The translations under genes were made by a program, and so were the position numbers. From Microcaldota archaeon (GTDB taxonomy: Archaea > Micrarchaeota > Micrarchaeia > Micrarchaeales > Micrarchaeaceae): a DNA stretch of 37,506 nt. Below, one piece after another: positions 3,258-35,179 of this stretch. Numbering within the stretch: the first letter of the stretch is position 1; every line of letters starts with the position of its first letter. The notes under the pieces are model-generated. The model saw nothing but the letters and a program-made list of their open reading frames with translations, was not told the origin of the DNA and made no database searches. The stretch spans positions 1-37,506 of the forward strand of contig JAJYDY010000005.1 of assembly GCA_021790455.1 (NCBI GenBank). Direction: 5' to 3'.

Positions 3258-4703
3258 ATGGTATCCCTTGCTTTCATGGACAAGATAGCGCGCTTCATCC
3301 CTACGATTAGGGGTCCTGCCAACCCGCTCTCACTTCGAGAGAAGATGGTCTGGACCGCCGGCGTGCTTGTCATCTATTTCCTGCTGTACAGCACAGTGGC
3401 ATACGGGGTCAACCAGCAGACCCTTTCGCAGCCCTTCCTCCAGCTGATCAGCATAGTGTTCGCAGGAAAGATAGGAAGCCTTATCACAGTCGGTATAGGA
3501 CCAATCGTGCTCTCCAGCATAGTGCTCCAGCTGCTTTCCGGTTCTGGACTGTTCAAGCTCGACATGAACGACCCGGTGCAGAAGGCAAGATTCCAGACAC
3601 TGCAGAAGTCTGCTGCGATAGCGATAGCGGTGATAGAATCTGTCATCTATGTTGCAACTGGCTTCGTCCCGATATCCGGGCCTGCCTCCTTCGGCATAGT
3701 TGCGCTGCAGCTTGCCGTCGGCGCAATAATGATCATATTCCTCGACGAGATAATGACGAAGTGGGGGATAATGTCGGGAATCAACATATTCATAGCGGCT
3801 GGAGTCTCATACTCAATCGTTGCGGGAACCTTCTCCATACTCCTTCCAGGTGCCGCAGCGGCGCTGAAGAACGGAGGGGCGTCTGCGCTCTCCAGCGCAG
3901 TCCTGGCGTTCGGGCCTCTCTTCTTTGCGATAATAATATTCCTGATCAGCATCTACGCTTACGAGACGAAGGTGGAGCTGCCTCTGGCATTCGAGCAGCT
4001 CAGGGGAGTCGGAGGCCGCCTCCCAATACCTTTCCTCTATGTCAGCGTGCTGCCAGTCATACTGGCCTCGTCCCTGGAACTCTCCCTTACTGTCTGGTTC
4101 CGGTTCCTTGCCGGAATGTCTGGAAATATTATCAAGTTCTTCGCCCTCTACGTTCCCAGCAGCGCAGGCCCGCAGCTAACCGGAGGTCTGCTCTATCTGA
4201 TCTCGCCGGTCTTCCCGTCTCCCTATCCGTCGCCTTATGGAATAGGCGGCTACGGCGCATACTTCAACTATCTTGCCACGTCCTCATCGCAGCTCTACCT
4301 CCCATGGGGCGGCATGATAATGGTGCCGGAGTTTGTACACATCATATTATACACCCTTGTCCTCGTCGGCCTCTGCGTGATATTCGGGAAGTTCTGGGTA
4401 GGCATGACCGGCCAGAGCCCGAAGGAGATGTCAGAGCAGCTTGGTGACATGGGCTGGCAGATACCAGGATTCAGGAGAGATCCCCGCATAATAGAGAGCG
4501 TGCTGAACAAGTACATCCCCACTGTTACGGTGCTGGGAAGCATATTCGTCGGCCTCCTTGCCGCTCTCGCTACCCTCACAGGGGCGATAGGGACAGGAAT
4601 GGGAATACTGCTTACCGTGGGAATAATCTACATGGTGTACCAGCAGCTGCAGCAGGAGCGCCTCTTCGAGACGTATCCGCTTCTGGACAAGATCATGAAG
4701 TAG
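3258..4703 (+). CDS. secY: Preprotein translocase subunit SecY
   Basis: Multi-TM protein; FLDEIMTKWGIMSGINIFIAAG, GGRLPIPFLYVSVLPVI and C-terminal region are SecY-like. Confidence 0.95.
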   Translation: MVSLAFMDKIARFIPTIRGPANPLSLREKMVWTAGVLVIYFLLYSTVAYGVNQQTLSQPFLQLISIVFAGKIGSLITVGIGPIVLSSIVLQLLSGSGLFKLDMNDPVQKARFQTLQKSAAIAIAVIESVIYVATGFVPISGPASFGIVALQLAVGAIMIIFLDEIMTKWGIMSGINIFIAAGVSYSIVAGTFSILLPGAAAALKNGGASALSSAVLAFGPLFFAIIIFLISIYAYETKVELPLAFEQLRGVGGRLPIPFLYVSVLPVILASSLELSLTVWFRFLAGMSGNIIKFFALYVPSSAGPQLTGGLLYLISPVFPSPYPSPYGIGGYGAYFNYLATSSSQLYLPWGGMIMVPEFVHIILYTLVLVGLCVIFGKFWVGMTGQSPKEMSEQLGDMGWQIPGFRRDPRIIESVLNKYIPTVTVLGSIFVGLLAALATLTGAIGTGMGILLTVGIIYMVYQQLQQERLFETYPLLDKIMK

Positions 4704-15213: not shown

Positions 15214-16056
15214 ATGGTAGTAACCGCGGCGCAGGCGAGAGAAATTGCACAGGATATTTCAGCCCAGCAGACAAGGATAGTTCCAACGGGAAAGAACCAG
15301 CCTTGGTTGGATGCAAGACTTGCCATGGACAAGGAAGGAAATAGGATGCCGACAAATGCTGATTACGACAGGGTCCTTGTAGGATCGGAGGCATGGAAGC
15401 AAATAAAAGAAGTCTTCCCTGCTTGGTCTGATACGGTATTGGTCTACCCGGAAAAAGGGGGCAAATTCAAGGCGGGAAAGGATGTTACAGACGCTTTTAA
15501 GGATGGTGCGGGAAATACATGGGTCTTCTCCGCTTCTTCCGTTCCAAAGGAAGCCGTAGGGAAGAAGGGTGTAGCGATATGCATAGAGCATCCTAAGATA
15601 GAGCTGATAGGAAGCCGGGTAGTGCTTTCCGCAGGTCCGGAAAGCTCAGTAACTCTTCTTGAGAATTTCATACAGGAAAATGGAATGGCAGGAAAAGTAG
15701 ATGAAAAGACAAGAGTACCTCTGGAAGCAAATATGAGCAACCTTTCGCCAGAGCAGATTAGATGGTTATACAGGATATATGACATAGGAGTAAGGCCTCT
15801 GGTCCGCGGCTTCTACGGCTACGACGTCAGGCTCAGGCGGGTCGTCTACGCGATCGGCAGGCTGGACCTCCGTTTCGGGGTGGCGCAACTTGAAACTGGC
15901 AGCGAAGCTGCCGCGCCAAAAATTGGCACTGCAAATACCCAATTAGCTTCGATGGTAAGGGAGACTTTGCCGCCGATAATTGCGGCTTTGGAGCCGATAG
16001 CAAAGCCAGAAGTGCTCGAAAACCTGAGACGTTTGCAAAGGGTAGCATCAGAATAA
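15214..16056 (+). CDS. DGR target (variable) protein
   Basis: ORF contains the VR (15794-15884). ATG at 15214 (MVVTAAQAREIA) fits the TATA-like box better than the track start TTG 15157. Confidence 0.85.
   Translation: MVVTAAQAREIAQDISAQQTRIVPTGKNQPWLDARLAMDKEGNRMPTNADYDRVLVGSEAWKQIKEVFPAWSDTVLVYPEKGGKFKAGKDVTDAFKDGAGNTWVFSASSVPKEAVGKKGVAICIEHPKIELIGSRVVLSAGPESSVTLLENFIQENGMAGKVDEKTRVPLEANMSNLSPEQIRWLYRIYDIGVRPLVRGFYGYDVRLRRVVYAIGRLDLRFGVAQLETGSEAAAPKIGTANTQLASMVRETLPPIIAALEPIAKPEVLENLRRLQRVASE
15794..15884 (+). repeat. DGR variable repeat (VR)
   Basis: 91-nt gap-free alignment with TR 16292-16382 (constant offset 498). 19 differences: 18 at TR adenines, 1 at a TR guanine (16367). Confidence 0.95.
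15898..15912 (+). other. Hairpin just downstream of VR, candidate target-recognition structure
   Basis: GGCAGC GAA GCTGCC, perfect 6-bp inverted repeat starting 13 nt after the VR end. Confidence 0.55.
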
Positions 16057-16060
16057 AGCA

Positions 16061-16068
16061 TTATATAT
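16061..16068 (+). promoter_or_regulatory. TATA-like box for the TR-RNA/RT transcript
   Basis: ttatatat just after the target stop; archaeal spacing predicts a start at about 16088-16093, at the base of the predicted three-way junction. Confidence 0.5.
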
Positions 16069-16090
16069 CTGATGCAGCTCACTTCTTTTA

Positions 16091-16415
16091 CCTAGGTTTG
16101 CAATGGGATTATTCCCGCAAATCACGGCAAAGCCGTGGGTGTAGGCCTAGGAGCCACACACTCGTCTACAGCGCTGATTAGCTCAATGAGGCAAATCAGA
16201 CATGAAATTCAGCAGCGACACCGAGTAAGGAAACCGAAACCGTGAAGCTGCGGTGCGCCAGAAATGGCATATAGTAGACGGGTTACCGTTGGGCCTCTGG
16301 TCCGCGACTTCAACAACTACGACAACAGGAACAGGCGGAACGTCAACGCGAACAGCAGGCAGGACAGCCGTTTCGAAATGGCTTCGGCTTACACCTTGGG
16401 TTTCGTGGTAATCGC
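16091..16415 (+). ncRNA. Predicted DGR TR-containing structured RNA
   Basis: Three-way junction 16091-16151, long-range helix 16160-16169/16274-16283, then TR 16292-16382 and a 33-nt spacer to the RT start. Confidence 0.55.
16292..16382 (+). repeat. DGR template repeat (TR)
   Basis: Seven AAC codons in the VR frame (PLVRDFNNYDNRNRRNVNANSRQDSRFEMA); substitutions relative to VR fall on adenines. Confidence 0.95.
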
Positions 16416-17468
16416 ATGAAAACCTACAGGAATCTGTACGGTCGGCTATGTTCCTATGATAACCTTAGGCTGGCTTGGACGAAGGCAAGGCAGAGGAAGA
16501 CGCAGAGGGAATATGTAATTGAATTCGAGTCCAATCTTGAAGGCAATATAAAAGAGCTTCAATACGAGCTTGAAACGCAGATTTATTCTCCGGCTCCGTT
16601 AACCGTATTCATCGTAAGAGACCCGAAGACCAGGAAGATAAGCGCATCGCATTTCAGGGACAGAGTAGTGCATCATGCGTTATGCAATGTAATAGCGCCT
16701 ATTTTTGAAAAAGATTTCATACATGACTCCTTTGCAAATCAGATTGATAAAGGAACCCACAAAGCGATATTGAGATACGAAGCGTTCGTGAGGAAAGTTG
16801 CGATCGTAAAACGGCGCGGGGCGGAAAATTTACATGGTTTTGTACTTAAGGCGGACGTGAGGCATTATTTCGATTCAATCAATCATGATATTCTTCTAGG
16901 CATAATCAAAAGAAAGATAAAAGATGATGAGGTAATCTCGCTTATAGAGATCATCCTAAAGAACCATAAGCCGGAGATAGACGGGGTTGGGATTCCGTTA
17001 GGCAATCTGACTTCACAGTTTTTCGCTAACGTCTACCTAAATGAACTTGACTGGTTTGTAAAGCACAAACTAAAAGTAAAGTATTACATCAGGTACGTAG
17101 ACGATTTTGTAATTATACACAGAGATAAACAAGCGCTAGAAAATTGGAAGACTGAGATTGATAGGTTTCTTAGAGAAAACTTGGAAGTCGAGCTTCATCC
17201 AGAAAAGTCTAGGATCATCCCACTTACGAATGGGGTAACCTTTCTTGGATTCAGGATATTCTATCAGCATAGATTACTGAAAAAGAGCAATGTAAATCGT
17301 GTTTGGAAACGGTTGAAGGTATTTGAGAGGCGATACAGAGATGGAACCGTGACTGATGCAGAGATAAAAGAGAGTGTTAACGGTTGGTTGGCTTATGCAA
17401 AGTTCGCCGACACCTACAAACTGCGGAAAAAGGTATCCAACCGCGCCGTTCAGATTCTGCGGATCTGA
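16416..17468 (+). CDS. DGR-type reverse transcriptase
   Basis: YIRYVDDFVII catalytic motif; GIPLGNLTSQFFANVYLNELD carries the SQ form of motif 4 typical of DGR RTs; immediately downstream of TR. Confidence 0.95.
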   Translation: MKTYRNLYGRLCSYDNLRLAWTKARQRKTQREYVIEFESNLEGNIKELQYELETQIYSPAPLTVFIVRDPKTRKISASHFRDRVVHHALCNVIAPIFEKDFIHDSFANQIDKGTHKAILRYEAFVRKVAIVKRRGAENLHGFVLKADVRHYFDSINHDILLGIIKRKIKDDEVISLIEIILKNHKPEIDGVGIPLGNLTSQFFANVYLNELDWFVKHKLKVKYYIRYVDDFVIIHRDKQALENWKTEIDRFLRENLEVELHPEKSRIIPLTNGVTFLGFRIFYQHRLLKKSNVNRVWKRLKVFERRYRDGTVTDAEIKESVNGWLAYAKFADTYKLRKKVSNRAVQILRI

Positions 17469-22312: not shown

Positions 22313-23533
22313 TTAGCGCTGCTCCCTGATGCCCCCCCTGAGGAAGTAGACGACGCCGGCAGCCAGGATTATCCCGCCGCTGAGGCTGAGGATAGGCCCA
22401 AGGCTTGCAAGGAACGCCAACGCGGCGCTGCCGAAGAGCCATTCCCTCCTTGGAATAGTGTGCTCAAGCTTCAACCTTTTAGATATGAGTTTCACCCACG
22501 CCCATGCAACGAGGACGCTGACCGATATGAGCAGCAGCGATCCGAGCACTGCATGAAGCCATTCCGGCACCTGCACTATGTTAGTACTGGAAAGCTGGAG
22601 CCGGCTGCTGGCTGTGCCAAGATAGTTGAAGTAAGCTGCATAGCTGCCTACTCCATAAGGAGCGGGGTAAGCCAACGGGAATATGCTGTCAGCAAGCAGG
22701 TATACGATCCCCCCGTTCATGGAGGGAGGCCCAAAAGACTGCGGCGTGTAAGAAGCCCAGATGCTGTTGTTGCCACCGTTTGCAATGAGAATGACCGTGA
22801 AAACCACACCGATCAGCAGACCTGCGATAATAGAAGAGAACAGCGCCGGAAAGAGATATGGTATAGGTATCCTCTTCCCGCTTCCGTGGAACAGCTTGAG
22901 CACCGCTTTCCTCTGCGCCTTCATGGACTTGAAGACACGATACACCAGCAGGAACACTATTACAGTGAGCACCGCAGGCGCGAAGCCTATTATTGCACTG
23001 GCGAGGGCAGAGTTCGCTGCTGTGGATCCAGCAGCCAACGTACCCGCAGCGCCCAAGGCAAGGAAATACACGCTTATCAGGAAGTTGAGCGCGAACGAAG
23101 CGACAAGAAACAGGTTTATCCCGGATGCTATCCCTTTCTTCAGCGAATAGTGGTCAAGCAGGACCATGAGCGCTCCAAAGAAAGCGAACTGCACTGCCAG
23201 GAGGACAGCGGAATACTGCGAATAAAAAAGTGCGTCAATTACAGAGTATATGACAACGAATGCGAGGGCTATCACGTTTCTTCCGTCAAGGAATTTGATC
23301 GATTCCCTGCCCTTCTCCTTCTGGACATAGCCAAGGCCGTAAAACAGCATAGCAAAAGTAGTCACTAGGGTGAGCGCCTGGAATCCTCCGAACCCTGCCC
23401 CTGGGGCGAAGGGGAATGTGGATGCAAGCGTGGCATAGCCAAACGGCTGTATCCATAATAGGAGAAATGCTATCGCCGCCACAGCAACAGCGATCCGCAC
23501 CTTCTTTTCAGAGAGCAGCTTTCCAAAGTCCAT
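22313..23533 (-). CDS. Divergent SecY paralog (SecY2-like)
   Basis: Resembles SecY at 3258-4703: FPLAYPAPYGVGSYAAYFNYLGTASSRLQL vs FPSPYPSPYGIGGYGAYFNYLATSSSQLYL; GKRIPIPYLFPALFSS vs GGRLPIPFLYVSVLPV; KKGIASGINLFLVAS vs KWGIMSGINIFIAAG. Confidence 0.85.
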   Translation of the reverse strand: MDFGKLLSEKKVRIAVAVAAIAFLLLWIQPFGYATLASTFPFAPGAGFGGFQALTLVTTFAMLFYGLGYVQKEKGRESIKFLDGRNVIALAFVVIYSVIDALFYSQYSAVLLAVQFAFFGALMVLLDHYSLKKGIASGINLFLVASFALNFLISVYFLALGAAGTLAAGSTAANSALASAIIGFAPAVLTVIVFLLVYRVFKSMKAQRKAVLKLFHGSGKRIPIPYLFPALFSSIIAGLLIGVVFTVILIANGGNNSIWASYTPQSFGPPSMNGGIVYLLADSIFPLAYPAPYGVGSYAAYFNYLGTASSRLQLSSTNIVQVPEWLHAVLGSLLLISVSVLVAWAWVKLISKRLKLEHTIPRREWLFGSAALAFLASLGPILSLSGGIILAAGVVYFLRGGIREQR

Positions 23534-29483: not shown

Positions 29484-32400
29484 CTAGACGGTCTGCGCGT
29501 CGACGACCCTCACTCCCGGTTCCACCCTCATGAGCCGCACTCCGCTTGCGCTCCTTCCCGTCTGCCTTATCTCCGATACTGGGAACTGGATCGAAAGGCC
29601 TTTCGAATTTATCAGCAGCACGCTTTCCTCGGGCATTACCTTGAGGGACTTGACAACATACCCTGTCTTCTCCTTCACCTTGAGGTTGATCACTCCCTTG
29701 CCGCCCCTTCTCTGCAGCCTGTACTCCTTCAGTTCTGTGACCTTCCCGAATCCATTCTCTGTTATGGTCGCTATGTAATCGGTTTCTCTTGCTACAAGGA
29801 CGTTGACGACCTGGTCGTTGTTCCCTATCCTTATCCCCCTGACTCCCCTCGCTACCCTCCCCATAGGCCGCACGTCGTTTTCGTCGAACCTCAGAGCCTT
29901 GCCCCTCTTCGTTGCTATGAATATCTGCGACTTCCCATCGCTTATGCACGTGTCAGCGAGGGTGTCTCCGTCCTCAAGGGGCATCGCTATTATCCCGTTT
30001 GCCCGCGGCCTTGAGAACCTCTCTGCGTTGACCCTCTTTATCTTCCCCTTCCGCGTGACAAAGGTCATGAAGCTCTTCTCAAACGCCCTTGTGTCTATTA
30101 CCTTCTCGATCGACTCTCCCTCTGCAAGCCTGACGAGGTTGACCGCCGCCTTTCCATGCCCGTACCTGCCTGCCTCAGGTACCTGCCATGCCTTCATCCA
30201 GTAAGCCCTTCCCTTGTTCGTGAGCACAAGCAGGTAATCTTTTGTCATGCAGGATACAATCTGCTTTACGAAGTCCCCTTCTGTAAGCTCTATCGCGATT
30301 ATTCCCTTTCCACCCCTTCCCTGCGCCCTGTATGCATTCGTCGGAAGCCTCTTCATGTAGTTCTTGCTCGTGAGAATTACAGTAGTCTCCTCGTCAGGGA
30401 TAAGGTCCTCGTTCTCTATCTCCTCGAACTCGGACTGCTCTACCTGCGTCCGCCTGTCCCTTCCATATTTTTCCTTAAGCTCTTTTGTCTCCTCCTTGAT
30501 TATCTGATAAACCTTGCTCTCATTTTCTAGGATTTCCTTGAAATTCGTGATCTTCTGCACTAGGTCCTTCTTCTCCGTCTCGAGCGATGTGCTCTCCAGG
30601 CTCGTGAGCTTGCTGAGTTTCATGTCTAGTATTGCAGTGGCCTGCTTTTCGGAAAGCGAGTACTTGCTCATGAGATGAGAGCGCGCCTCCTTTGCGTCTG
30701 AGCTCTTCTTTATCGTTGCTATGACTTCGTTTATGTTTACGATTGCGATGAGAAGGCCGTCGACAATGTGCAGCCTGTCACTCGCGACATCGAGGTCGAA
30801 CTTCGTCCTCTTCTTTATAACGTCGAGCCTGTGGTCGACAAAAGTCTTGATGAAGTTCCTTATGTTCATGGTCATAAGGTTGTTCCCTATCACTGCGATG
30901 TTCATTACAGGGAAAGATATCTGCAGCTGCGTGTGCTTGTAGAGCGTGTTGAGAACTGCGTTTGCATTCGCATCCTTCTTTAGCTCAATCACGACGCGGA
31001 TTCCCTCCTTTCCGCTCTCATCCCTGAGATCGCTGATTCCCTGGACTTTCTTTTCCTTTACAAGTTCAGCGATCTTCTGCACCATCGTTGCCTTGTTGAC
31101 GGTGTAGGGTATCTCTGTGATAAGTATGACATTCCTGTTCTTCTCCTCCTCTATCACCGCCTTTCCCCTCAATATGCAGGAGCCCCTTCCTGTGAGATAG
31201 GATGCGATGAGCGCGCTGTTCCTGAAGACTATTCCGCCAGTAGCGAAATCAGGCCCCTGTATGTACTGCAGAAGCTCCTGTGGGGTTATGTCCTGTTTTT
31301 CGATGTATGCGATTACCGCATCGCAAATCTCCCTGAGATTGTGCTGCATTATGTTGGTCGCAAACCCGACAGCGATTCCGGCGGCGCCATTCACAAGTAG
31401 GTTGGGGACCTTTGCTGGGAGGACGAGCGGTTCCTCTTCTGTGTTGTCGAAGTTGGGGACGAAAGGCACCGCCTTCTTTTCCAGGTCTGCAAGCATCTCC
31501 TCCGCGAGCTTGTTGAGTTTGACCTCAGTGTATCTTTGCGCGGCAGGAGAATCTCCGTCGACACTTCCCATATTTCCTTGACCTTGTACAAGCGTATGAT
31601 TCATAGAGAAGTCCTGCGCCATCCTAACGAGCGTCTCGTACGCAGCAATGTCGCCGTGTGGGTGGTACTTTCCGATGCAGTTATGGGAGAGCATCCCATT
31701 TGCAACAAACTCGTGTTGGCTATCAACACCAATATCATAAGTAATGTCCTCACCGAATTCTTCTACAGAAATCACCGGTGAAAAGTTCATCTTGTCACGT
31801 ACTATTGAAGCCATGAAAGGCGCATATTGTGACTTTATCCTAGCAAGTTTGTCCTGAATTCCCCATTCTAAGACCTGGGAAATGCGCAATTGTGTGCTGT
31901 GCAAATCAGAACTATATCTTATTTTTGCGCCGGTTCTATACTTTATTCCTGCTCTAAATTTCCTACCTTCGCTATCTTTGTACCAACCACTACCAATATG
32001 TTTAGAGCTTAGTTCCGTGAACAGCTTTTCCCCAGCCCAAGGAAGCACATCATAATCAGATTTTTTTAAATTGCGCGTCAGGAGATCCTGAGAACGTTCT
32101 CTTTTCTTCTCCTCTCTAAGGTTTAATATGCTTGCGAGTCGTTGTGCATTTATTCCAGCAAACTCTAGGCTAAATGCATCATTTACATGCACTTTTCTAC
32201 CGAGTATTTTCGTTTCGCCCTCTTTTCTGCTTTTGTACTTTTTCCCGTGGATGTCAAGGTGATGAAGCAGTATCAGCAACTGATTCGCAATCTCGTTGGA
32301 TATGGTAGCATACTCAATAATGTTTCTCTCTTTGTGTATATGTCCATCTCCATCAAACATTCCACTTAGAAGCGCAGAAATAACAGATTTTGGGCTTATG

Positions 32401-33269
32401 AAGATTTGCTGGGGAATCCTTTTGGTTTGCGCCTTACGCCCAAGCAAATCAAAAGTTTTTATGAAGAAATCGCATACATCTCTATTATGTACGCGAATAT
32501 GATAAATCATGCCAGTGCATTTGCTCCCATCCTTAGATTCATATTCTGTTTTTCTCTCTTCTATCTTGGGATTGTAACCGAATTCATGCTGTAGACAAAG
32601 TTCTATGGTCTTTATTATTTCAACACTTGCTGAGCAGAAGCCTATCCTGTGGTATTTCCCTCTATCATTATCCATTAAAATGAAGCCGTCAGAAAGCCAT
32701 TGACCAAGCAGATATGCAATATTCTCGTTTAACCGCCTCTGTCCTAGATCCACATATTCTGTGATTTCTGGATAAAGCGACTTAGTAAGCACATAGTCGC
32801 CACATTTTAAATCTTTTGCAGCTCTCCAAACGATCTTCCAGTCTTTTGTGAGGACTTTAAATTGTTGAGAACTTGTAACAATATTCTCCATTCCGGCGCC
32901 TATCGCCACCTTAATTAATTTGCGCTTAGGCATGATATAAAGTTCAGAAACCTTTTGTAACCCATCTTGCGTGTAGACTTTAGCGCCTTTCTCTATGTTT
33001 TGGATTGGAATCAGTCCCTTATCTGTAAGCACTAGCGTATCTTTTGCGAAACATTCCCCAACAATCCTAGCGCTCTTCTTCGTTGGCTGGTCATGGGTGT
33101 TTCCAAGACCGTACATTGCCCAAAGAATCCTCCTCTGGGCTGGCTTGAGGCCGTCCCTTGCGTCGGGGAGAGCCCTGCCTACTATAACGCTCATGGCGTA
33201 GTCTATGTAGGAGCTCTGCATCTCCTTCTCGATCGGCGCTTCGGTTATCTCTTCTGCCATAAGCATCAA
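29484..33269 (-). CDS. gyrA: DNA gyrase subunit A, intein-containing
   Basis: SSYIDYAMSVIVGRALPDARDGLKPAQRRIL...KKSARIVGE|intein|CIGKYHPHGDIAAYETLVRMAQDF...SVDGDSPAAQRYTE; C-terminal beta-pinwheel repeats. Confidence 0.97.
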   Translation of the reverse strand: MMLMAEEITEAPIEKEMQSSYIDYAMSVIVGRALPDARDGLKPAQRRILWAMYGLGNTHDQPTKKSARIVGECFAKDTLVLTDKGLIPIQNIEKGAKVYTQDGLQKVSELYIMPKRKLIKVAIGAGMENIVTSSQQFKVLTKDWKIVWRAAKDLKCGDYVLTKSLYPEITEYVDLGQRRLNENIAYLLGQWLSDGFILMDNDRGKYHRIGFCSASVEIIKTIELCLQHEFGYNPKIEERKTEYESKDGSKCTGMIYHIRVHNRDVCDFFIKTFDLLGRKAQTKRIPQQIFISPKSVISALLSGMFDGDGHIHKERNIIEYATISNEIANQLLILLHHLDIHGKKYKSRKEGETKILGRKVHVNDAFSLEFAGINAQRLASILNLREEKKRERSQDLLTRNLKKSDYDVLPWAGEKLFTELSSKHIGSGWYKDSEGRKFRAGIKYRTGAKIRYSSDLHSTQLRISQVLEWGIQDKLARIKSQYAPFMASIVRDKMNFSPVISVEEFGEDITYDIGVDSQHEFVANGMLSHNCIGKYHPHGDIAAYETLVRMAQDFSMNHTLVQGQGNMGSVDGDSPAAQRYTEVKLNKLAEEMLADLEKKAVPFVPNFDNTEEEPLVLPAKVPNLLVNGAAGIAVGFATNIMQHNLREICDAVIAYIEKQDITPQELLQYIQGPDFATGGIVFRNSALIASYLTGRGSCILRGKAVIEEEKNRNVILITEIPYTVNKATMVQKIAELVKEKKVQGISDLRDESGKEGIRVVIELKKDANANAVLNTLYKHTQLQISFPVMNIAVIGNNLMTMNIRNFIKTFVDHRLDVIKKRTKFDLDVASDRLHIVDGLLIAIVNINEVIATIKKSSDAKEARSHLMSKYSLSEKQATAILDMKLSKLTSLESTSLETEKKDLVQKITNFKEILENESKVYQIIKEETKELKEKYGRDRRTQVEQSEFEEIENEDLIPDEETTVILTSKNYMKRLPTNAYRAQGRGGKGIIAIELTEGDFVKQIVSCMTKDYLLVLTNKGRAYWMKAWQVPEAGRYGHGKAAVNLVRLAEGESIEKVIDTRAFEKSFMTFVTRKGKIKRVNAERFSRPRANGIIAMPLEDGDTLADTCISDGKSQIFIATKRGKALRFDENDVRPMGRVARGVRGIRIGNNDQVVNVLVARETDYIATITENGFGKVTELKEYRLQRRGGKGVINLKVKEKTGYVVKSLKVMPEESVLLINSKGLSIQFPVSEIRQTGRSASGVRLMRVEPGVRVVDAQTV
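31680..33053 (-). mobile_element. GyrA intein (458 aa) with LAGLIDADG endonuclease motifs
   Basis: Starts CFAKDTLVLTDKGLIPIQNI, ends VANGMLSHN before Cys+1 (CIGKYHPHGD). LAGLIDADG-like YLLGQWLSDGF and ALLSGMFDGDGHI. Confidence 0.95.
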
Positions 33270-33271
33270 TT

Positions 33272-35179
33272 TTATATGTCAAGGAACTTGACTTCGCTGC
33301 TGTGCTCTTCGATGAAGTGCCTCCTCTGCTCGACATCGAGTCCCATAAGTATCGTGAACATGGTGTTCGCGAGCTCTGCGTCTCCTATCATAACCCTCTT
33401 CAGCACTCTCGCCTTCGGGTCCATGGTGGTCTCCCAGAGCTGCTCGGGGTTCATCTCTCCAAGACCTTTGTATCTCTGGACAGTGGCCTTTCCATCGTAG
33501 CCCTTCATTACCTCGTTCAGCTGGTTGTCGGAATATGCGTACTTCACTTCCCTGCCCTTTGCTATCTTGTAGAGCGGAGGCTGTCCTATATAGACATACC
33601 CCCTCTCTATGAGCGGCTTCATGAACCTGTAGAAGAAGGTCAGCAGGAGGGTCCTGATGTGGCTTCCGTCAACGTCTGCATCAGTAAGAAGTATTATTTT
33701 CTTGTAGCGCACGCTGTCCGCATTGAACTGCTCTTTTATCCCTGTGCCGAAAGCGGTGACCATTGTATGAAGCTCTGCGTTCGCGAATATCCTGTCCTCT
33801 GTGGCCTTCTCTACGTTGAGTATCTTTCCCCTGAGCGGGAGTATTGCCTGGAAGAACCTGTCCCTTGCCTGCTTGCTGCTCCCTGCCGCGCTCTCACCCT
33901 CCACTATGAATATCTCGGACTTAGCCGGGTCGCTCTCTGTGCAGTCTGCAAGCTTTCCAGGAAGCACAGCGCCCTCGAAAAGCCCCTTCTTCCTGCTGAG
34001 CTCCCTCGCCTTCCTCGCCGCCTCCCTCGCCTCCGCAGCGCCGTAGACCTTGTCGATTATCCGGCCTGCCTCGGCAGGATTCTCTTCGAAGTACCTCATG
34101 AGCTCCGTGTAGACCGCGTTCTCCACGAATGTCTTGATTGCTGTGTTGCCCAGCTTCTCCTTCGTCTGCCCCTCGAATTCGGGGTTCTGCATGAGTATGG
34201 TGATGACTGATATGAGGCCTTCCCTTGTGTCGTCTCCTTCGAGTGAGATGGTCCTCGGCTTCTTTGAAAGCTTGTTGTAGTTAGCCATCGCTCTCGTCAG
34301 CGCAGCGTGGAATCCGTTGACGTGCGTTCCTCCCTGCGGGGTCTTTATCTTGTTTACGAAAGAAAGCAGATCCTCGCTGTATGTGCCGACATACTGCATT
34401 ATCAGATCAAGCTTTAGAGAGTCTGTCTGCCTGACCACGCGCACCGGCTTCGATACTTCCTGCTTCTTGTCCCTCATATAGTTTAGGAAGTCAGGCAATC
34501 CCTCCTTTGAATGGTAATCGACCTGTTTGGGCGGATTCTCCCTTTCGTCGGTATATTTTATCAGCAGGCCTGGATTTAGGAAAGCGAGGTCCCTCAGCCT
34601 CTCCACAAGCTCTATCGTGTCAAAGCTTCTCGCAGAGAATATCTCCTTGTCCGGCTTGAACTTTATTGTAGTGCCTGTCGACTTGTCGGGCACGTCTCCA
34701 ACCATCTCTATCGGGCCTACGACCCCTCCCCTGCTGAACTTCTGCCTGTAAATCCTGCCATCCCTCTTTACCGTCACTTCCGTGTGCTCGGAAAGGGAGT
34801 TTACCACTGTAAGCCCCACTCCATGAAGACCTCCCGACACCTTGTAGACCTTGCTCTCGAACTTCCCTCCGGAGTGGAGAGAGGTCATGATCACCTCGAG
34901 CGCGGGCTTCCCCTCCTTCGGGATTATGTCGACAGGAATGCCCCTTCCATCGTCGCTTATCTCAGCGACGTCAACATCCTCGTCCCTGGAGAGCTTTACC
35001 GTAACTGTCTTCGCGTATCCTGCAATCGCCTCATCTATGGCGTTGTCAAGCACCTCGTAAAGAAGGTGGATAAAGCCAGAGCTGCCGGTGCTCCCTATGT
35101 ACATGGCAGGCCTTTTCCTGACCCCCTGCGGGCCAGAAAGCACAACTATGTCCTTTGCAGTGTACTCAGTATCACTCAT
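33272..35179 (-). CDS. gyrB: DNA gyrase subunit B
   Basis: GHKL ATPase (DNAIDEAIAGYAKTV, SGGLHGVGLTVVNSLS) and TOPRIM (IVEGESAAGSSKQARDRFFQAILPLRGKILNVEKA, LTDADVDGSHIRTLLLTFFYR). Confidence 0.97.
   Translation of the reverse strand: MSDTEYTAKDIVVLSGPQGVRKRPAMYIGSTGSSGFIHLLYEVLDNAIDEAIAGYAKTVTVKLSRDEDVDVAEISDDGRGIPVDIIPKEGKPALEVIMTSLHSGGKFESKVYKVSGGLHGVGLTVVNSLSEHTEVTVKRDGRIYRQKFSRGGVVGPIEMVGDVPDKSTGTTIKFKPDKEIFSARSFDTIELVERLRDLAFLNPGLLIKYTDERENPPKQVDYHSKEGLPDFLNYMRDKKQEVSKPVRVVRQTDSLKLDLIMQYVGTYSEDLLSFVNKIKTPQGGTHVNGFHAALTRAMANYNKLSKKPRTISLEGDDTREGLISVITILMQNPEFEGQTKEKLGNTAIKTFVENAVYTELMRYFEENPAEAGRIIDKVYGAAEAREAARKARELSRKKGLFEGAVLPGKLADCTESDPAKSEIFIVEGESAAGSSKQARDRFFQAILPLRGKILNVEKATEDRIFANAELHTMVTAFGTGIKEQFNADSVRYKKIILLTDADVDGSHIRTLLLTFFYRFMKPLIERGYVYIGQPPLYKIAKGREVKYAYSDNQLNEVMKGYDGKATVQRYKGLGEMNPEQLWETTMDPKARVLKRVMIGDAELANTMFTILMGLDVEQRRHFIEEHSSEVKFLDI

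Follow-up and report, generated by a model that had tools for sequence, protein, structure and literature searches.

The natural control of diversity-generating retroelements (DGRs) has yet to be explained (Roux et al.). Here we examined a gene cassette in a 37,506-nucleotide stretch of DNA (here called the window) from the 782-kb DPANN-type assembly of a Micrarchaeota-type DPANN archaeon. We identified the cassette (Table 1) as an archaeal DGR. Taken as such, it is another DGR; the more novel part is a simple-repeat tract in the reverse transcriptase (RT) genes of its relatives. We consider it likely that the window holds a complete DGR and that the tract of the relatives acts as a slipped-strand contingency (phase-variation) switch.

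Table 1. Features of the retroelement cassette, in positions of the window
Feature	Position	Strand	Basis
DGR target gene, 280 aa; VR at residues about 195-225, followed by a 56-aa tail predicted to be helical	15214..16056	+	ORF, alignment
Variable repeat (VR)	15794..15884	+	Gapless alignment to TR; in frame within the target gene
Almost certainly a fixed VR/TR mark at the 3' boundary: GGG in VR, AAA in TR (16376-16378)	15878..15880	+	Comparison with related pairs
Hairpin GGCAGC-GAA-GCTGCC, about 13-14 nt 3' of VR (DGR target-site stem-loop)	15898..15912	+	Sequence
RT-16 RNA (Rfam RF03019), its end directly abutting TR	16091..16291	+	Rfam match above the gathering score
Template repeat (TR)	16292..16382	+	Gapless alignment to VR
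DGR reverse transcriptase, 350 aa, intact, in frame, with YVDD and LGNLTSQFFANVYL	16416..17468	+	ORF, profile, tree, model
CGGCGCGGGGCGG, RT residues about 133-137, interrupted G-rich counterpart of the G/C/AG tract of relatives	16812..16824	+	Alignment

The starting point was a sequence-only reading of the window, which described a variable repeat (VR) and a template repeat (TR) aligned without gaps over 91 nt. The recomputed alignment agrees with it to the base at both repeats and drops to noise on either side. A recount also returned the reported differences: 18 of the 27 TR adenines are changed in the VR (9 to G, 7 to T, and 2 to C), compared with 1 of 64 non-adenine positions (G16367 to T; Fisher p = 1.7e-11). 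The changes, which had been placed mainly in AAC codons, fall mostly in AAC, AGC, and GAC codons in the frame of the target gene. Although the count of 18 of 27 stands, its use as evidence of mutagenesis needs correction. Nearly all related pairs with a recovered 3' end, including that of the window, show AA(A)T in the TR and GG(G)T in the VR at this end, and the change of A16376-A16378 to GGG is for this reason almost certainly a set of fixed VR/TR marks at the 3' boundary and not mutagenesis. With these three changes set aside, the evidence of mutagenesis comes down to 15 of 24 adenines. A search of the window with the TR pattern found no copy besides the TR and the VR, and a 42-base core of the pattern matched only the TR and the one VR in the genome assembly. 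A relative of the same genus (G005; L048 VR pairs) has one TR for two VRs (offsets -849 and -1607) and thus carries a multi-target DGR.

The assignment to archaeal DGRs, as originally proposed, is supported by the adenine signature, the RT tree, and the best PDB match. Both sequence marks reported for the RT, YVDD and the SQ form of motif 4, are present (LGNLTSQFFANVYL). The best PDB match of the window RT is the DGR RT of BPP-1 (8ub7; E 8e-51), with group II RTs at 1e-26 or weaker, and an AF2 model of the protein (mean pLDDT 88) has the same entry as its top structure match (E 3e-26; TM 0.86/0.92). Placement in a tree, which had been suggested as a check, groups the window and DPANN RTs with phage DGR RTs and splits them from group II RTs at 100/100. 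Because the RT falls with DGR RTs, and given this split and the BPP-1 match, the reading as a group II intron or retron RT is not borne out. The NCBIfam group II model scored 161 bits on the window RT, below its cutoff of 300, and an Rfam scan of the window found no intron family. Single-protein scans of viral contigs with the RT and with the target found nothing.

The cassette was also described as compact, and we recovered the order target gene, RT-16 RNA, TR, and RT on one strand, with no Avd found. There is no Avd-sized ORF between target and RT; the Avd profile PF05635 gave no match either, but its controls were equally silent. The target family had no match in Pfam, NCBIfam, PHROG, or PDB. 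Its homologs share a GVRP-VR-FGV layout, several of them keep the C-terminal tail, and an AF2 model built from five sequences is weak (pLDDT 63.5), with no credible fold match by which to assign it a C-type-lectin or Ig fold. GAA-loop hairpins lie at the equivalent place in several related loci, and stems of at least 6 occur 3' of the VR in 24 of 62 loci versus 4 of 62 shuffled controls. The RT-16 RNA was found at the DGRs of the relatives checked (L048, L050, L054, L055, L114, L120, L121, L146, and L172), directly 5' of the TR wherever both were mapped. Rfam lists RT-16 as an orphan sRNA. Its position next to the TR, both here and at related DGRs, suggests that it belongs to the DGR template transcript, of which it likely forms the structured 5' portion. 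In another genome (G083), we observed twelve matches to the target of the window, some of them adjacent (L024, L033, L037, L039-L047, and L063-L065), with no DGR RT detected; this family may either have expanded without a diversifier or have been diversified by a lost or unassembled DGR.

Two known systems are close to the cassette. The DGR of BPP-1 (mtd, avd, TR, and brt) shares with the window the adenine-only TR-to-VR divergence, the 3' VR/TR mark, the hairpin 3' of the VR, and an RT homologous over its whole length. It differs in having avd where the window has the RT-16 RNA, with no Avd found beside the window cassette, in a TR-RT spacing of over 140 nt (only 33 nt in the window), and in the 56-aa tail that follows the VR in the window, unlike in BPP-1. 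The DGRs of Nanoarchaeota and of the archaeal virus ANMV-1 (PMC4372165) resemble that of the window in their archaeal DGR RT clade, orphan targets, hairpin, and DPANN hosts; the window, in contrast, belongs to the phylum Micrarchaeota. The Results of that study (Paul et al. 2015) do not mention any repeat tract in the RT or any disruption of its frame.

Searches of related genomes often returned the RT as two matches in two frames, with the break always near RT residue 130-138. The DNA at the break is a pure run of 8-11 G, a C run, or an AG dinucleotide repeat. We scored three classes of repeat (G8-11, C8-9, and AG5-12) in 98 non-duplicate DPANN DGR-RT loci; the genome loci in this set are the best 80 among the matches listed, and the sample therefore favors near relatives. 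Among the matches listed, 26 of the 98 loci carry a repeat, always in the one RT loop that immediately precedes motif A. The 26 tract-bearing RTs group with 7 that lack a tract, including that of the window, in one clade of 33 members (support 99*), and the remaining 65 DPANN RTs outside it have no tract. Viral loci, the source of the bacterial and phage RTs examined, had no tract where both RT halves were found. The loop (residues 131-137 in the window RT) is disordered and is the only segment of the AF2 model of this protein with a pLDDT of <50. In 22 order-level genomes (about 18.6 Mb), we found 15 distinct runs of G9 or longer, 10 of them in the RT loop (p about 1e-39 by a simple binomial), and four of the five (AG)6-or-longer sites in 20 genomes are in DGR RTs. 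In class-level genomes, several other genes also carry G runs, which makes such runs a less specific mark of the RT loop. One locus (L121) comes from a record titled Woesearchaeota, yet it groups with Micrarchaeota and may be misbinned or transferred.

Presence of the tract and reading frame go together. Among the matches listed, the 26 tract loci are distributed over frames 0, 1, and 2 as 3, 12, and 11, whereas the 72 repeat-free loci are distributed as 72, 0, and 0 (Fisher p 1.8e-19). Removing the degenerate fragments L069 (G123) and L279 (G125) and the NN-gap locus L263 leaves 3, 11, and 9. The three in-frame tract loci (L271, AG10; L275, G10; and L278, AG5) are fewer than the approximately 9 of 26 expected from random phase (p 0.02), so that either the OFF state is favored or some in-frame product is made without a change in the DNA.

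In out-of-frame pairs, strong purifying selection acts on both halves of the RT, including the half that is out of frame; the downstream half has, for example, a dN/dS of about 0.12 in L270/L271 and 0.09 in L265/L275. Out-of-frame loci have VRs as freshly mutated as those of any other locus, with 205 of 350 adenines changed in the pooled set versus 2 of 853 non-adenine positions. Indirect signs of tract-length instability at the RT loop come from assemblies, from which all tract lengths were taken and which may carry errors. Two genomes of different species (G123 and G125) contain nearly identical RT fragments of about 680 bp, yet their tracts differ in length (G8 versus G10). The DNA flanking these degenerate fragments (L069 and L279, respectively) differs far more than the fragments themselves, suggesting that a DGR fragment was transferred recently. 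Within one genus, one member has an out-of-frame G8 tract (OFF) and another an in-frame G10 tract (ON). One scaffold joins a loop copy with G9 to a loop copy with G11 across NN, and one contig ends inside the G tract of the RT.

These observations of tract, frame at the DNA level, selection, and fresh VRs led us to a model of nested hypermutation, which we regard as likely, if somewhat less so than the phase-variable reading itself: the repeat in the RT gene would be a heritable write-enable switch for the DGR, producing bursts of target diversification that are then frozen. As in known DGRs, the RT would copy a template RNA (RT-16 leader and TR) and make errors at adenines, and the resulting cDNA would replace the VR of the adjacent target gene, with the 3' mark of the VR and the hairpin used for recognition. 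The tract lies between the N-terminal half of the RT and motif A, in a loop that tolerates indels, and its length sets the frame of the catalytic half. Slippage during replication would alter this length and turn the RT on in a minority of cells, which would rewrite the VR and so diversify the target gene; a later slip would turn the RT off, preserving the new VR variant. We infer switching within populations from the assemblies, and the switching within cells, the order of events, and the benefit are likewise parts of the proposed model. The archaeal polymerases PolB and PolD slip in vitro when copying a template with a hairpin and direct repeats (PMC4134008).

The window RT itself is probably locked on, in frame. 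Its loop has no pure tract, and with a longest G run of 4, it is stable and in frame. These features, together with the lack of a tract in 6 other members of the clade, would fit an ordinary, always-on DGR in the window that never had a tract, with the switch present only in relatives. We consider this history possible but unlikely: at the position where the window has CGGCGCGGGGCGG, the sister RT (G011; 77% identical to the window RT, 100* support) has an uninterrupted G11 and shares the AAACGG start, and most of the surrounding clade carries tracts. By parsimony, in a tree with many open nodes, the window RT appears instead to have lost a pure tract.

For the relatives, the main rival to a phase-variable RT is transcriptional slippage or its ribosomal counterpart, in which RNA polymerase or the ribosome slips on the tract. 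The DNA would then remain out of frame, and a small fraction of full-length RT would be made, at a low but constitutive level. Homopolymers can be slippery, and this account would explain how 23 of the 26 tract RTs can be out of frame while their VRs are fresh. It would, however, have to provide a +1 correction in some loci and a -1 correction in others (12 versus 11) at tracts of unconserved length, with C runs and AG dinucleotides at the same place, and in-frame tract alleles exist (L271, L275, and L278). We judge it improbable. A programmed frameshift in one direction was dropped from consideration, because both +1 and -1 corrections, varying lengths, C runs, and AG units are not compatible with it. 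All three repeat units (G, C, and AG) and both frame directions occur in the same RT loop.

Broken frames could also come from homopolymer errors in sequencing or assembly, or from random decay of the RT gene. Long G runs are indeed error prone, and two of the loci (G123 and G125) are degenerate fragments. Nevertheless, error cannot account for a repeat that occupies one position in RTs whose identity is as low as 55-60%, AG repeats are not typical sites of error, short-read assembler names (e.g., NODE and k141) appear in many of the records, selection on the downstream RT half persists, and none of the 72 repeat-free RTs among the matches listed is broken at the loop. Error or decay is thus a highly improbable source of the pattern. 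Least credible of all is a split RT of two separately made polypeptides that assemble, an idea prompted by the two-piece matches and by a break located every time in a single loop that separates two structural parts but dropped given the repeat tract and the unconserved second-ORF starts (no ATG in 19 of 23 out-of-frame loci and no ATG, GTG, or TTG at all in several), with single-ORF, in-frame versions in the same clade, including the window.

A phase-variable RT would have close parallels in the contingency loci of Neisseria, Haemophilus, and Campylobacter, in which a homopolymer or dinucleotide tract in an ORF likewise sets the frame, relatives carry on and off alleles, and different units occur at one position. 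Those bacterial loci switch surface or restriction-modification genes, whereas the tract of the relatives would switch a mutagenic RT in an archaeon. Our literature search, with subscription literature outside its scope and priority unproven, found no prior phase-variable DGR or RT, DGR-RT repeats, or archaeal simple-repeat contingency loci, and a 2025 review still places archaeal phase-variable loci in future work (PMC11868660). If correct, the proposed switch would make the DGR phase variable. It would also be among the first clear cases of simple-repeat phase variation in archaea, and one kept throughout an RT clade that spans the phylum although the repeat unit has been replaced (G, C, and AG). 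Simple-repeat phase variation, known mostly from pathogenic and commensal bacteria, would also be extended to uncultured archaea. Setting the RT frame through a repeat tract would be a concrete way of controlling DGR activity, testable in existing metagenome reads.

Similar repeats also occur in other genes. In the genome of the window (G000:C1:114-620; L330), a GNAT acetyltransferase gene is broken into two frames by a CT/AG dinucleotide repeat (about 9 units), making it a second candidate phase-variable gene of this archaeon. A G9 tract accompanies a right-handed beta-helix-like surface protein split between frames (G203:C1:42346; L304), and another lies right after the ATG of a pilin-like protein (G047:C20:18281; L087); these are possible further contingency genes in Micrarchaeota. 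Elsewhere in the window, a GyrA ORF of 1,261 aa (29484-33269, minus strand) contains an apparent intein insert that starts with CFAKDTLVLTDKG and ends with FVANGMLSHNC, and gyrB lies beside it (33272-35179). The 37-kb window also encodes two SecY-like membrane proteins, one on the plus strand (3258-4703) and one on the minus strand (22313-23533).
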